Assembly: GCA_030429545.1 (NCBI GenBank) | Contig: JAUIFF010000001.1 | Location: 1,337,599 to 1,401,598 of the forward strand | Length of the DNA: 64,000 nt | Reading direction: 5' to 3' | DNA from: Polyangia bacterium | GTDB taxonomy: Bacteria; Myxococcota_A; Polyangia; Nannocystales; Nannocystaceae | Shown here: one piece after another, positions 58,932 to 64,000 of the stretch | How positions within the stretch are numbered: the first letter of the stretch is position 1 | How the letters are laid out: every line of letters begins with the position of its first letter | Position numbers and translations under genes: made by a program | The notes under the pieces: generated by a model | Database searches by the model: none | Told to the model about the DNA's origin: nothing | What the model saw: the letters and a program-made list of their open reading frames with translations, nothing else

Positions 58932-61250
58932 ATGCTTCGTATTTCGTTGGGCTTTGTTCTCGCTAGCCTCGGGATCTCCGGGACCGCCCTAGCGGCTGCT
59001 GCCCAACCAAGCTTGCCGCCGGAAGATCCCAACGCTGGGGCGCTGGCCGAAGAAGAAGAAGCAGGTGCGCCCGCCCCCGGAGAGACGCCTGATCCGGGAG
59101 CCCCACCAGCACTCGGCGAAGACCCGTCGGGGGCACTCGAAGATCCCGCTGACGAGGGTGCTCCCGCAGATGCCGAGGCCACCGAAGCCACCGACCTTGG
59201 TGAGACTGCCCCCGAGGACAGCAGCGAAACCGAGGATCTTGCAGATACACCTGAAGGTCCCGAGGCATCTGCCTCACTCGATGTCGATGCCAGTTTAGGT
59301 GCGGATACAGAGACCGAGCCAGAGCCTGTCCTAGACGACAGCCCAGATATGGTTCGTGGGCGGCGAGAACCCGCGGTCAACAGTTTGCGCGGCGGCCTTG
59401 GCCTCTACCACACGACCCTCGCGGATGTCGGTGGCCGACACTCTGTCCGCTTTCGGTTGCACACCGACTTTTTTAGCAAAAGCGGGTTTATCTACGACAG
59501 TAGCGAGTTTGGCCCCGACAAAAACACAAGGTTTCGCGGCGCCATCAACCTCGGTTACAGCCCGTTCAAATGGGGCGAAGTTTTCTTTACTGTCGAAAGT
59601 GCGGTCAATAAGAACGCCCGCGACCAACCCGACCGCCAGGACCCGGTGACCAACTTTGCCCTCGGCGACATGACCCTCGGCCTCAAGGGTGCCCACCGAT
59701 TTTACAAGGGTGGCGCCATCGGGCTCGGCGGCCAAATGGCCCTCGGGTTGCTGGCCGGTGCCGATCGGCTGGCCGCCAGTGGTGTGAACTTTAATATCGA
59801 TGCGCTGTTTACCCTCGATATTCGCCATCTCACCGCCAGCAAGTTTCCGTTTCGGTTTACGACCAACATTGGTTGGATGCTCGACAACTCGACCAAGCTG
59901 CAAGACTGGGCCCAGCAGTTGGAGCCCACCAGCCGCGAGATTATGCGGTTTGGCCTGGGTGTGAACCACAGTCGGGTGCGCATGCGTTACGCCGTCGACT
60001 TTCCGTTTCGCCTCGGTAAGGAGCGGCAGTTTGGGCTCAATCCAATTGTTGAGCTCGGGTGGGATGTCTCGACCCAGGAAGAACTCGAAGTGTTTGGCCA
60101 ACCCGGTGCCCAGGCTTCGCCCCTACCCCGATCGAGTTTGTGGACCACAATCGGCCTGCGAGCCAATGTCGTATCGGGGCTGCACCTCGACGCCGCCATC
60201 GATATTGGCATGGTGTCACCAAACTTTGAGTTTGGCCCGCCGGTTGCCCCCTACCAGGTGATTTTGGGCCTGGGCTGGTCGATCGATCCCAAGCCGCCCG
60301 TACGCAAAATCAAGGTGCCGGCCCCGGCCGAATCCACCGCCCCAGCCGTGCTCGACGGTCGTCTCACTGGGCGGGTGACCGACGCCAACGGCAATCCGCT
60401 TGTAGGTGCAAAGGTTTCGTTCCCCGGCCTGGCCGCCAACCCCATCCTGACCGACGAGAATGGTTACTATACAAGTTTCCGGTTCCCCGAAGGTGAGGTC
60501 AGTGTTCGGGTTGAGTCGGCCGACGGCCAAGTTGCGGAGGAACTCGCCGAAGTCCGCGAGGGCGAGGATACAACGCTCGACATTACCGTTGCCGAGGCCT
60601 CGGCTGAGACTGCAGCAGCCGGAACAACCGGCATTATGAGCGGCACCTTTGTCGACGACGCTGGCAATCCGGTGAAGGTCTCGATGATGGTCGTGGGCCA
60701 AGGAGTGCAGGAGCCGTTCGATTCGTCCGAAGACGGTCAGATTGTCCTCGAACTCCCCACGGGGAGCTACGAAGGCACCATCACCGCAGCTGGCTTTAGC
60801 GAAAAGAAGATTACCTTTGAGGTTGCCGAGGGTGATCAGGGGGCGACGGTTCAGGAAACCCTGACCAAGTTAGCGCCGGTCGACACTCCCAACATCAAGG
60901 GCAACAAACGCCGGATCTCGGTCAAGAAGAAAATCCGCTACAAGGGCAACGCGGTGAGCGACAAGAGCCACGCAATTCTCGACGAACTCGCGGCGTTTTT
61001 GAATGGGCACCCCGAGTATGCCCAGGTTGAGATTGCGGTGTATTCCGACGATCGCGGCAACCCGAAAAAGAAAACCTCAGAGCGTGCGGATGCCGTGCGG
61101 ACCTACCTCGTGGACAAGGGGGTATCGCCCGATCGGGTCGAGGCCAAGGGATACGGCGACAAAAACCCCGTCGCCGTCAACATGACCGCCAGTGGTCGGG
61201 CCAAGAACAATCGCACGGTTCTCAAGGTCACCAAGTACACTGGCGAGTAG
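58932..61250 (+). CDS. Hybrid outer-membrane protein: acidic linker, barrel, carboxypeptidase-regulatory repeats, OmpA domain
   Basis: The 772-aa product has a signal peptide (MLRISLGFVLASLGISGTAL), a 110-residue Glu/Ala/Pro-rich acidic linker, and a beta-barrel region (about residues 155-455, including RFGLGVNHSRVRMRYAVDF). Two carboxypeptidase-regulatory-like modules follow (about 475-560, RLTGRVTDANGNPLVGAKVS; about 570-645). A C-terminal OmpA domain (about 660-772) has AILDELAAFLNGHPEYAQVE, SERADAVRTYLVDKGVSPDR and VEAKGYGDKNPV, the peptidoglycan-binding pattern. It should span the outer membrane and hold peptidoglycan. The 3' end is the source of the repeats downstream. Confidence 0.85.
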   Translation: MLRISLGFVLASLGISGTALAAAAQPSLPPEDPNAGALAEEEEAGAPAPGETPDPGAPPALGEDPSGALEDPADEGAPADAEATEATDLGETAPEDSSETEDLADTPEGPEASASLDVDASLGADTETEPEPVLDDSPDMVRGRREPAVNSLRGGLGLYHTTLADVGGRHSVRFRLHTDFFSKSGFIYDSSEFGPDKNTRFRGAINLGYSPFKWGEVFFTVESAVNKNARDQPDRQDPVTNFALGDMTLGLKGAHRFYKGGAIGLGGQMALGLLAGADRLAASGVNFNIDALFTLDIRHLTASKFPFRFTTNIGWMLDNSTKLQDWAQQLEPTSREIMRFGLGVNHSRVRMRYAVDFPFRLGKERQFGLNPIVELGWDVSTQEELEVFGQPGAQASPLPRSSLWTTIGLRANVVSGLHLDAAIDIGMVSPNFEFGPPVAPYQVILGLGWSIDPKPPVRKIKVPAPAESTAPAVLDGRLTGRVTDANGNPLVGAKVSFPGLAANPILTDENGYYTSFRFPEGEVSVRVESADGQVAEELAEVREGEDTTLDITVAEASAETAAAGTTGIMSGTFVDDAGNPVKVSMMVVGQGVQEPFDSSEDGQIVLELPTGSYEGTITAAGFSEKKITFEVAEGDQGATVQETLTKLAPVDTPNIKGNKRRISVKKKIRYKGNAVSDKSHAILDELAAFLNGHPEYAQVEIAVYSDDRGNPKKKTSERADAVRTYLVDKGVSPDRVEAKGYGDKNPVAVNMTASGRAKNNRTVLKVTKYTGE

Positions 61251-61294
61251 CTAAGGCTACACACTTGTATATGCATCCGGGTCGCTGCGTTACC

Positions 61295-61369
61295 TCGCCA
61301 TCGCGTGAACCGTCGTCAACCCGCACGGTTCTCCTGGCGAGTAGCGATCGCTACGTACTTGTATAGGCA
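61295..61369 (+). repeat. 75-bp direct repeat, copy A
   Basis: It begins TCGCCATCGCGTGAACCG and ends GTATAGGCA. It carries a GTAGCGATCGCTAC palindrome. It differs from copy B at about five positions. Confidence 0.85.
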
Positions 61370-61499
61370 GCAGGGTTGCTGTGAAAGGGACCCGACCCTT
61401 CGCCTCCCCTCCCGTGGTCGGACACCGCCATGTACAGCGAGGACGGCCAGTTCCTGTTTGAGCGCTCGCGTCCGCCGTTGCTCCTTTGCTTACGCAGGC

Positions 61500-61574
61500 T
61501 CGCCACCGCGTGAACCGTCGTCAACCCGCGCGGTTCTCCTGGCGAGTAGCGATCGCTACGTACTTGTACACGCA
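61500..61574 (+). repeat. 75-bp direct repeat, copy B
   Basis: It begins TCGCCACCGCGTGAACCG and ends GTACACGCA. The starts of the two copies are 205 bp apart. Confidence 0.85.
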
Positions 61575-61659
61575 ACTGGGGGCGTTGCCTCGCCACGATG
61601 CCTCGCCACGGCGTGGTCCGTCGTTGCCTCGCCACGCGTGGCCCGTCGTCAACCTTAGC

Positions 61660-62448
61660 TTAGGGGCCGCCGTAGGCGTCGCTAAACTCGGCGATCGTCG
61701 ACATCAATCCCTTGGGCACCGGCTGGCCATCGCGTGACAACTCGCGTAACCGGCGTTCGTAGTCGCCAAGACCTGTGCCAGGGATTCGTGTGATCTGGTT
61801 GAGCGCCGAGCGTAGGCTCTTGATCACGTCGTCCGACATCAACCAACCGTGGACGGCGTGGAGCCGGAACACGCGGTCGAGCCAGATGCCCGAGGATGAT
61901 TTGGTTGCCAATGCAATCAAACAGTTCACACAGCTGCGGGCAGTTGGGTGGTCTTCGGGAACTTTCGCCCCCATCAGCTGGTTGGTGAGTGCCAGGGCGT
62001 AGCGCTCCGCCTCTTTGATCTTGCCGACCTTGAGGCTTTTTTCGACCAACTGGCTAATCAGCTGGGGAAACGCAGTTTCTTCGTTGGGCCCCATGGTCTT
62101 GCGCAAGCTGTCCATCGGGTCATCAACAGGCGTCAGGCTGGCGTCGCTGATGATCGAGATAACCTCGCGACCGACGCGGAGCGTGTCTTTGTGGTGGACT
62201 TGGACCTTGGTCCGCTTGGTCAGGCGCTCGCCGTTGAGAAAGGTGCCGTTGCTGCTGTCGAGATCTTCGACGTGCAAACCGGCCTCGGAGACGTGTAACC
62301 GGGCGTGATACCGGGAGATCAGGTCGTCGTCACAGACGAGCCAGCAGTCGCTCATTCTGCCCACTAGGTGCGTTCCAAGCGGTAGGGGCAGCGTCCGTCC
62401 GCCGAATTTGATTTTGAACTGCGGCACTGCGGAAGAACAATACCGCAA
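61660..62448 (-). CDS. FHA-domain protein with helical C-terminus
   Basis: The 262-aa product has an N-terminal FHA domain (about residues 18-95), with GTHLVGRMSDCWLVCDDDLI, ISRYHARL and LDSSNGTFLNGERL. It contains the Gly-Arg, Ser-x2-His and Asn-Gly residues that read phosphothreonine. The C-terminal 150 residues are helical (LISQLVEKSLKVGKIKEAER) and resemble tetratricopeptide-like repeats. A natural partner is a Ser/Thr kinase, and one is encoded 3 kb away, but a direct link is not shown. Translation likely starts at ATG 62448. Confidence 0.85.
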   Translation of the reverse strand: MRYCSSAVPQFKIKFGGRTLPLPLGTHLVGRMSDCWLVCDDDLISRYHARLHVSEAGLHVEDLDSSNGTFLNGERLTKRTKVQVHHKDTLRVGREVISIISDASLTPVDDPMDSLRKTMGPNEETAFPQLISQLVEKSLKVGKIKEAERYALALTNQLMGAKVPEDHPTARSCVNCLIALATKSSSGIWLDRVFRLHAVHGWLMSDDVIKSLRSALNQITRIPGTGLGDYERRLRELSRDGQPVPKGLMSTIAEFSDAYGGP

Positions 62449-62671
62449 GACTGCGGTCCGGCACAGTCTTAGGCGACACCCAAGCCCGCGAGTTGGGCCC
62501 TATCTACCCCTGGATTTCTCACCACAAACAAACTTACGCGCGTTGAAAGTTGTGACTTGAGCTCGCGAGGCGCGTGCGCGTTTTCGTGAGGACTTCACAC
62601 ATGTCCGTTTGGGTCGGCAACACGCGACTGCGCGTACCAACCCAGGATCGGTTGTGGCGATGTCGACGACC

Positions 62672-64000
62672 TCAGCGAACTTCGAATGTGTCGTCGGGCA
62701 GCACCTGCCCGTCTTGAATCAGCACCCGCAAAACCTGCCCGCGCGTGCCCTGGGTACTCCCACGACCGCTCGAATCGACCACGTACACAACCCGCGCCTC
62801 GGGGGCATTGATGACCCTGACCGGGCTTGTCAGCGGCACGTTGAGCAGCTGCACTGGGAAGTTGTAGGGCGAGTACCCTGCCTGGGTTGTGAACCGCTGA
62901 CTGTAGTTTCGCGGGATGCGTGAGCGTTTGAACTCGGTAAACGACGCGGGCCAAAACACGTTGTCTCGCCCGGGGATCTCTGCGGTGAGGCCTTCGAGGG
63001 AGGTCAGATCGAGCACGAGCGACATCATCGGGTTGCTAAACCGCAGTGCTGTTACTGGCGTGTCCTCGTAGGACATGTAGTGGAACAGTGACTTGCCGTT
63101 TTCGGAAGCGCTGCCGCCATCGGGAAGCCGTGGCAGGGTCACGACACAGGGATTGGGATCGCTACCCGACGGGATTTCATCGTTGGGGCAATCAGGGATC
63201 GGCCACAGCGAGTTTTCGTTGTCGGCGAATGTCTCCTCGAGCCGAATCCGGCTGGTGAGCAACTCCGACATCGTGGCGTCCTCGTAGCACATGCCGTTTT
63301 CGTCGGCTTTGACCCGCTCGTCGATAAATGCGTATTGCCCGGGACCGCTCAGGGTGAAGCTGTTGCGGGTGTGCACCTGGTAGGTCATCAACTCGCTGTA
63401 GCAGTAAGGACCGGGAAGATGGCGAAGTGCGCAGTCTTCGGTCTCCTCGTCACACTTGCGGCGACACAGCCCATCGATGCAGTACGGGAACGCGATCTCT
63501 TCGCCCTCGGGGCCCTCTTCGACAATTCCCTCGCAGTCGATGTGCTCGACACAACCGGTCTCGGGTTGAACCTCGGCGCACAACATCCTGCCCTCGTCTT
63601 CGATTGGGATCGAGACCATCGAGCCATCCTCGCCCTCGACCTCGGTCCACTCGGCGATGAAAGACGTTTTGGGGATGTCCATCACTTGTAAGTGCAAGCG
63701 ATCCTGAAACGCCTTGGTGATCAAGAACTCGCGAATCGGGGTGCCGCACGGATCGCTGATAAACTCGTCGCAGGCATCGAGGAGCTTGGCGTAGTCGGCG
63801 TCGTAGCGGCTTTGCGAGACACAGATGCCGGTTGTCGAGCCCCCGTCTGGGTCGAGCAGGCAGACCTGCCCTGCCCCACAATCGCCATCGTCACCGCAGC
63901 CGTAGACAAACACCTTGTCACCCGGGAGCACGCCGTCGTCGCAGAAGTTTGCGCGACTGTCGATGATCATCGAGTCGCCATCTTCCTGCGGAGCACAGTA
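62672..64000 (-). CDS. Cys-rich secreted protein (5' end off right edge)
   Basis: The reading frame remains open to base 64000, so the N-terminus is outside the window and at least 442 residues are visible. An internal ATG at 63970 is not the start because upstream codons continue in frame (YCAPQEDGDS). Clusters of cysteines appear near VYGCGDDGDCGAGQVC, CVEHIDCEGI and CIDGLCRRKCDEETEDC. The C-terminal half is beta-rich without cysteines. The composition is like Nannocystis-type extracellular proteins. The function is unknown. Confidence 0.75.
   Translation of the reverse strand, partial: YCAPQEDGDSMIIDSRANFCDDGVLPGDKVFVYGCGDDGDCGAGQVCLLDPDGGSTTGICVSQSRYDADYAKLLDACDEFISDPCGTPIREFLITKAFQDRLHLQVMDIPKTSFIAEWTEVEGEDGSMVSIPIEDEGRMLCAEVQPETGCVEHIDCEGIVEEGPEGEEIAFPYCIDGLCRRKCDEETEDCALRHLPGPYCYSELMTYQVHTRNSFTLSGPGQYAFIDERVKADENGMCYEDATMSELLTSRIRLEETFADNENSLWPIPDCPNDEIPSGSDPNPCVVTLPRLPDGGSASENGKSLFHYMSYEDTPVTALRFSNPMMSLVLDLTSLEGLTAEIPGRDNVFWPASFTEFKRSRIPRNYSQRFTTQAGYSPYNFPVQLLNVPLTSPVRVINAPEARVVYVVDSSGRGSTQGTRGQVLRVLIQDGQVLPDDTFEVR

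Follow-up and report, generated by a model that had tools for sequence, protein, structure and literature searches.

Near the end of the 64,000-nucleotide window analyzed here, a stretch of the genome of a Polyangia bacterium of the family Nannocystaceae (assembly GCA_030429545.1, contig JAUIFF010000001.1), a gene encoding an OmpA-hybrid protein converges on a gene encoding an FHA-domain protein. The 409-bp spacer that separates the two genes is a repeat array, which also takes in the final 39 bases of the OmpA-hybrid gene. We consider it probable that this array arose by locus-specific tandem duplication, was tolerated at convergent 3' ends, and then decayed. It is one of many private arrays, which in this genome are commonest at convergent gene ends, and it reflects an ordinary process in an unusually repeat-rich genome.

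The array is arranged head to tail in the order A0-B1-A1-(insert)-B2-A2-B3, with a basic period of 94 bp (Table 1). Piece A has the form CGCACGGTTCTC-CTGGCGAGTAGC-(4 bases)-GCTAC-..-ACTTGTA...GGG..GCTG, and piece B the form CTCGCCA.CGCGTGaaCCGTCGTCAACC. The stop codon of the OmpA-hybrid gene (61248-61250) lies inside A0. The block CGCACGGTTCTC of the gene (61212-61223) is repeated at 61322 and, apart from one difference, at 61527, and the order of the blocks is kept. The gene end (61240-61287) is 81% identical to 61334-61381 over 48 nt, whereas 61294-61375 and 61499-61580, which lie 205 bp apart, are 93% identical over 82 nt. The downstream copies lack the 16 bases AAGGTCACCAAGTACA that part the two blocks in the gene; because of this, the distance between A0 and A1 is 110 bp for CGCACGGTTCTC and 94 bp from CTGGCGAG onward. 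The distance between A1 and A2 is 205 bp, that is, 94 bp plus about 111 bp of unmatched DNA. No significant relative of this unmatched stretch was found in the same genome (best other match, E = 0.04), which gives no backing to the idea that it is captured DNA.

Table 1. Features of the OmpA-hybrid/FHA locus (positions within the window).
Feature	Position	Strand	Remarks
OmpA-hybrid gene	58932..61250	+	ORF, 772 aa; the repeat begins with its final 39 bases
Unit copy A0	61212..61287	+	Gene end CGCACGGTTCTC + 16 bases + CTGGCGAGTAG, plus 37 bases 3' of the stop
Imperfect palindrome GTAGC-taag-GCTAC of A0	61247..61260	.	Overlaps the stop codon; read directly
TGTATATGCA in A0	61266..61275	.	Exact instance of TGYANNTRCA, the genome's highly iterated palindrome
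Half-unit B1 (CGTTACCTCGCCATCGCGTGAACCGTCGTCAACC)	61288..61321	+	No direct-orientation forerunner seen in the gene
Unit copy A1	61322..61381	+	From alignment; without the gene's 16-base piece
Perfect palindrome GTAGCGATCGCTAC in A1	61341..61354	.	
Unmatched stretch inside unit 1	61382..61498	.	Net excess of ~111 bp
Half-unit B2	61499..61526	+	
Unit copy A2	61527..61586	+	
Perfect palindrome GTAGCGATCGCTAC in A2	61546..61559	.	
Partial re-expansion of half-unit B, several partial copies	61583..61654	+	TGCCTCGCCACG triple, 13-bp and 25-bp sub-repeats
FHA-domain gene	61660..62448	-	262 aa, Pfam PF00498; converges on the OmpA-hybrid gene

These data refine the original prediction, which had been made from the DNA letters alone. 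Its two 75-bp copies are indeed spaced by 205 bp, whereas the unit is longer than 75 bp and has a natural period of 94 bp. Of the palindrome assigned to each copy, GTAGCGATCGCTAC is perfect in A1 and A2, whereas the gene's own version is imperfect. The TGCCTCGCCACG triple said to follow the copies is present at 61583-61636 and belongs to the array itself as a re-expanded half-unit B, given that 61622-61654 is 88% identical to 61288-61321 (E = 5e-4 genome-wide). The sequences CTCGCCA and GAACCGT of B1 are the inverse of TGGCGAG and ACGGTTC in the A half. Identity among the array copies ranges from 71 to 93%. The program TRF reported the 13- and 25-bp sub-repeats only, the 94-bp units being too diverged and one of them interrupted, and an automatic alignment of the three units placed the B halves poorly.

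The homology between the gene end and the copies was assessed against several backgrounds. When 61212-61287 was aligned with the downstream spacer, a score of 30.5 was obtained. None of 2000 dinucleotide shuffles (maximum, 13.5) came up to it, nor did any of the 321 other spacers with a length of 150-1000 bp within the surveyed part of the genome (maximum, 11.5). Relative to the whole 8.6-Mb genome, the 48-nt ungapped match to the gene end has an E value of 6e-6 and the 82-nt match one of 2e-28. Since shuffles and other spacers score far lower, this homology is not due to chance. The alignment, the shuffles, and the other spacers together confirm the earlier claim that blocks of the gene end, stop codon included, recur twice downstream in the same order.

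We then compared 17 of the 29 relatives' loci other than our own. Among the other 12, the gene end is cut by the contig in L063, L064, L077, and L079, the FHA match is absent in L060 and L076, and L080-L085 are distant. In L057, which is from the same genus, and L058, which is from the same family, the gene ends in TACACCGGCGAGTAG, as compared to TACACTGGCGAGTAG here, and CCGGCGAGTAG is located at the gene end of both relatives; the last codons and the stop are kept in these two loci, and the unit behind the gene is lacking. The L057 spacer measures approximately 102 bp, as opposed to 409 bp in the source genome, and a search for direct repeats in it revealed none. Because relatives keep the gene end without the unit, the ancestral copy is that of the gene, from which the downstream ones derive. 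A convergent FHA partner was present in 13 of the 17 loci, with no FHA match in L058, L059, L061, and L070. Spacer length, approximated by counting from the stop up to the final FHA base in the alignment, was ~20-102 bp in 9 of the 13 loci with this partner and 199-1249 bp in the remaining ones.

At the place orthologous to the OmpA gene end, arrays arise independently in relatives. Behind the OmpA homologue, 3 of the 17 loci have their own local direct repeats, the sequences of which are unrelated by eye. They include three copies of ~172 bp, 82-96% alike, at 953-1471 of L071 (genome G010), a two-copy repeat of 34-69 nt at 1294-1413 of L058 (genome G009; best pair, 69 nt, 83%, 86 bp apart), and a 60-nt repeat of 90% identity, 68 bp apart, in L061 (genome G020).

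The unit is confined to its locus. There are 2 exact copies of GTAGCGATCGCTAC in 8.6 Mb, both in the array, and 3 further places that match it with one mismatch. The unit was not found elsewhere in the genome (next match, E = 0.07), and the 28 other genomes of the family contained no array, just two matches of 27-31 bp (E = 0.002-0.003). A distant search for the unit among phages and plasmids returned nothing, nor did an exact-pattern scan, with the A half only, of genome and viral contig collections that may omit the records of this genome. As the unit is restricted to one locus and no array exists in the 28 family genomes, it is not a dispersed element. The genome search that the original prediction had proposed for the unit and for the 14-bp palindrome thus provided no copies that would make it an independent repeat family.

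The OmpA array is not a singular case. Our survey of the genome, which comprises 39 contigs, covered three stretches of ~400 kb, corresponding to 1.2 of 8.6 Mb (14%), in which genes were called mechanically (longest open reading frame [ORF] first) rather than taken from annotation, and ORFs of <120 aa and spacers of >1000 bp were left out. The last 40 bases of each gene plus the next 40 bases were scanned against the next 600 bp, and scores of ≥18 were retained. A downstream copy was detected for 37 of 875 gene ends, as compared to 0 of 875 shuffled controls, a number that counts both ends of one convergent spacer separately and includes tRNA clusters. The OmpA gene ranks 27th among these ends. 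An upstream copy was observed at 13 of 874 gene starts. Local direct repeats were most frequent in convergent spacers (20 of 182), as compared to 20 of 508 co-directional and 4 of 182 divergent ones; the convergent class differs from each of the other two with a Fisher p of 0.001 (two tRNA-containing intervals, one convergent and one divergent, were excluded). A stop codon is covered by the best repeat pair itself in 10 of these 20 convergent spacers; the OmpA array is not among them because its best pair is A1/A2, although A0 covers the stop. The identities of the best pairs in these 20 spacers range from 75 to 100%, which fits an ongoing process with decay. A cross-comparison of 32 arrays and the OmpA array revealed only a few weak similarities and one tRNA cluster, the units being otherwise locus-specific. 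A tandem array of tRNA-like genes is located at ~202335-203070 of contig C39, with periods of 78 and 192 bp, and ARAGORN identified tRNAs in the C39 intervals 201869-202399 and 202879-203191.

The younger arrays are informative on the manner in which such repeats arise. Sixteen arrays, located in spacers and in genes, are near-identical (93-100%) and have about two copies; the length of 13 of them departs from two periods by no more than 4 bp, and that of the others by +7, -17, and -27 bp. One younger array, at 212200-212602 of C39, has two units that are 99% alike. Most duplications therefore needed little or no pre-existing repeat, which is what replication slippage or template switching would lead one to expect. 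The period is divisible by three in 32 of 35 coding arrays, as opposed to 13 of 34 arrays that touch non-coding DNA (one tRNA cluster omitted). The reading frame is thus kept in coding arrays and not in the non-coding ones, indicating that selection filters the duplications that arise. Repeat-bearing spacers were also found in 400 kb each of G001 (same genus; 1/262), G009 (9/263), and G020 (15/231), and in 250 kb of Escherichia coli K-12 (2/191). Across four family genomes, repeats were present in 20/182, 5/57, 6/51, and 1/62 convergent spacers. Among the matches listed in open-access literature searches, none described comparable tandem repeats, either in spacers or at convergent gene ends.

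The original prediction had offered two readings, namely slippage or recombination that recurs at the end of the gene, and an element that expands by copying the terminus of the gene. The former is the best-supported reading, in view of the head-to-tail units, the ancestral gene copy, and the younger arrays that are simple tandem duplications. The latter is not supported, since only about 23 of the 94 bases of the downstream unit match the coding end of the gene, there is no dispersed family, and the unit is absent from other family genomes. In the scenario we favor, a segment of ~94-110 bp, reaching from the last 39 bases of the gene into the spacer, would have undergone repeated head-to-tail duplication. 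The step at work during replication may have been slippage or template switching, because the A/B unit holds inverted pieces that are able to pair; we infer this step, as well as the order of events and their neutrality. The first copy would have left the gene end whole, and the duplication would have been harmless because an intact gene end was preserved. Subsequently, 16 bases may have been lost from one copy, and this version would have spread by later duplication, while ~111 bp of unmatched DNA may have entered or persisted in unit 1 and the last half-unit may have grown again in 13- and 25-bp steps. Together with decay, these events would have obscured the original unit. For the B half, the inverse CTCGCCA/GAACCGT leads us to guess at a template switch to the other strand. 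A dedicated function is most likely absent, and the array may survive because a spacer between two gene ends has no promoter to protect. A gene left whole and a promoterless convergent spacer would be sufficient to explain the convergent excess.

Several observations weigh against this explanation. The copies are too diverged for duplication junctions to be visible. Upstream of A0, the gene contains nothing that corresponds to half-unit B, and a single simple duplication therefore cannot yield the whole unit. The same-genus genome G001 shows almost no repeats (1/262 spacers); tolerance at convergent ends consequently cannot explain everything, and the rate must differ among species. In the three relatives alone, the difference between convergent (12/170) and divergent (5/169) spacers was not significant (p = 0.13), whereas that between convergent and co-directional (8/417) spacers was (p = 0.004). 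Finally, unrelated repeats that recur behind the OmpA homologue elsewhere may indicate a hot spot rather than tolerance.

According to this last possibility, which we regard as unlikely, convergent gene ends are mutational hot spots at which colliding transcription or replication stalls cause duplications, and the bias would lie in the origin of the repeats and not in their survival. Repeats amount to 0.41 per kb in convergent, 0.15 in co-directional, and 0.08 in divergent spacers (before removal of the two tRNA-containing intervals), which, like the local repeats of other sequence in 3 of the 17 relatives' loci, agrees with a hot spot. However, promoters that constrain divergent spacers predict the same gradient, and 35 coding arrays were found in the same 1.2 Mb. 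As arrays occur inside genes as well, duplications are not restricted to gene ends.

It appears rather improbable that the array is a functional 3'-end element in which repeated hairpins terminate or stabilize both convergent transcripts, so that the extra copies were kept for this purpose. Candidate hairpins are GTAGC...GCTAC and CTCGCCA...GAACCGT...ACGGTTC...TGGCGAG, and the GTAGC/GCTAC stem is identical in three copies, with 3 of 4 loop bases changed; however, ten unchanged stem bases are unsurprising at the 19% divergence between A0 and A1 (estimated probability, ~0.12). For the minus strand of unit 1, folding is slightly better than that of shuffled sequences (z = -2.1), of which 5 of 200 equaled it, but folding of the plus strand is near chance (z = -1.6 for unit 1 and -0.6 for unit 2), and the gene end and the last part fold no better than chance (z = -0.04 and -0.22). 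A consensus search for terminator-like sites (G+C-rich stem followed by a T run) found 0 in 61000-62000, with 0.7 expected, no promoter consensus was found in the array, and a comparison of 60900-62700 with Rfam yielded nothing up to E = 1. In addition, relatives do with spacers of ~20-102 bp in 9 of the 13 loci having the FHA partner.

A different type of repeat emerged from a search for motifs common to spacers. The palindrome TGYANNTRCA has 4,915 copies in the source genome (G000), as compared to 412 for a reversed-pattern control, whereas the 28 other family genomes contain 50-450 copies, none exceeding its own control. In a sample of the class of 116 genomes (17 from the family, including our own; 128 different genomes in both counts together), the next highest number was observed in G096 (other family, 4.1 Mb), with 833 copies against 109, a weaker and perhaps independent excess, and mild excesses were found in G058 (519 versus 120) and G030 (230 versus 66). 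The excess depends on the gap: in the 1.2 Mb, there were 725 copies with gap 2 (control, 64), 26 and 23 with gaps 1 and 3, which is not above control, and 99 with gap 0 (control, 17), a smaller excess. Genes harbor 607 sites, 443 of them in one frame, whereas a third-order Markov simulation gives 59 and shuffled codons give 36; spacers contain 106 versus ~11. The density reaches its maximum, 1.85 per kb compared to ~0.5, just behind stop codons, within the first 50 bp. Spacers of G020, such as that of L061, contain a strong dispersed inverted motif around GGACATGTCC / ACATGTCC, a palindrome that differs from that of G000.

Cyanobacterial highly iterated palindromes (HIPs) are tied to DNA methyltransferases and generally occur at 1000-2000 copies per million bases, as stated in PMC4390886. 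TGYANNTRCA, with ~570 per million here, resembles HIP1 and the alternate HIPs of cyanobacteria in kind and differs from them in sequence. No such palindrome was named for myxobacteria among the matches listed in our literature searches. The array is not built of these sites: A0 carries one TGYANNTRCA, and in A1 and A2 the site is present with one mismatch, as judged by eye. TGYANNTRCA was discarded as the cause of arrays, since it occurs in 7 of 21 convergent spacers with repeats and in 35 of 161 without, which shows no clear link. HIP1 itself (GCGATCGC, contained within the 14-bp palindrome) was discarded as well, its enrichment being too small (118 versus ~94 expected in 1.2 Mb). So far as tested, the iterated palindrome and the array are separate, and we consider it very doubtful that convergent ends in this species are true duplication hot spots at which TGYANNTRCA marks template-switch sites that seed arrays.

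Least probable is a mobile palindromic element, similar to repetitive extragenic palindromes (REPs), bacterial interspersed mosaic elements (BIMEs), or miniature inverted-repeat transposable elements (MITEs), that inserted beside the gene and resembles its end through target choice: the A-B unit is quasi-palindromic and its copies are located in a spacer, but the palindrome and the unit are confined to the array, the gene copy is ancestral, and the absence of dispersed copies from the genomes and collections searched led us to rule out a REP/MITE, phage, or plasmid origin.

The OmpA-hybrid protein comprises a carboxypeptidase-regulatory-like domain (PF13620) and a C-terminal OmpA domain (PF00691) according to Pfam. 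Its best matches in the family genomes are 43-60% identical, except in G013 (E = 8e-15 only), and the best full-length matches outside the family are 26-35% identical. No second genome of the source species was found, the top OmpA match in other genomes being 60% identical. A 117-aa ORF across the array (61305-61658) has no Pfam match and was taken as due to chance.

Comparison with known repeats sets the array apart from dispersed families. REPs and BIMEs of enterobacteria are palindromic units clustered behind genes that form one dispersed family; the OmpA array shares with them the palindromic units behind genes and differs in that its unit is present at one locus only. Mycobacterial interspersed repetitive units (MIRUs) are direct repeats in spacers, with the same sequence at many loci. 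The array resembles MIRUs and STAR-type repeats as a set of direct repeats in a spacer, whereas their sequence is found at many loci and its own at one. Interspersed repeats of the STAR type appear in PMC3532100, and palindromic units are mentioned in PMC2884548. As described in the latter article, bacterial minisatellites, or variable-number tandem repeats (VNTRs), are small tandem repeats used for strain typing. The array shares with them a head-to-tail arrangement, a unit size between tens and hundreds of bp, restriction to a single locus, and a low copy number; such repeats are located in spacers and, in frame, in genes (PMC2884548). Unlike them, it is old and diverged (71-93%) and takes in a gene end.

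Taken alone, the array is a small scar. Its palindromic character is a caution to annotators, as such repeats need not be mobile elements. The species-specific TGYANNTRCA is a more surprising feature than the array and merits a separate study. In three of four family genomes, roughly 1 in 10 convergent spacers contains a private local repeat, which often includes the stop codon, and these arrays provide naturally occurring duplications of every age, in which the origin and decay of short tandem duplications can be studied.

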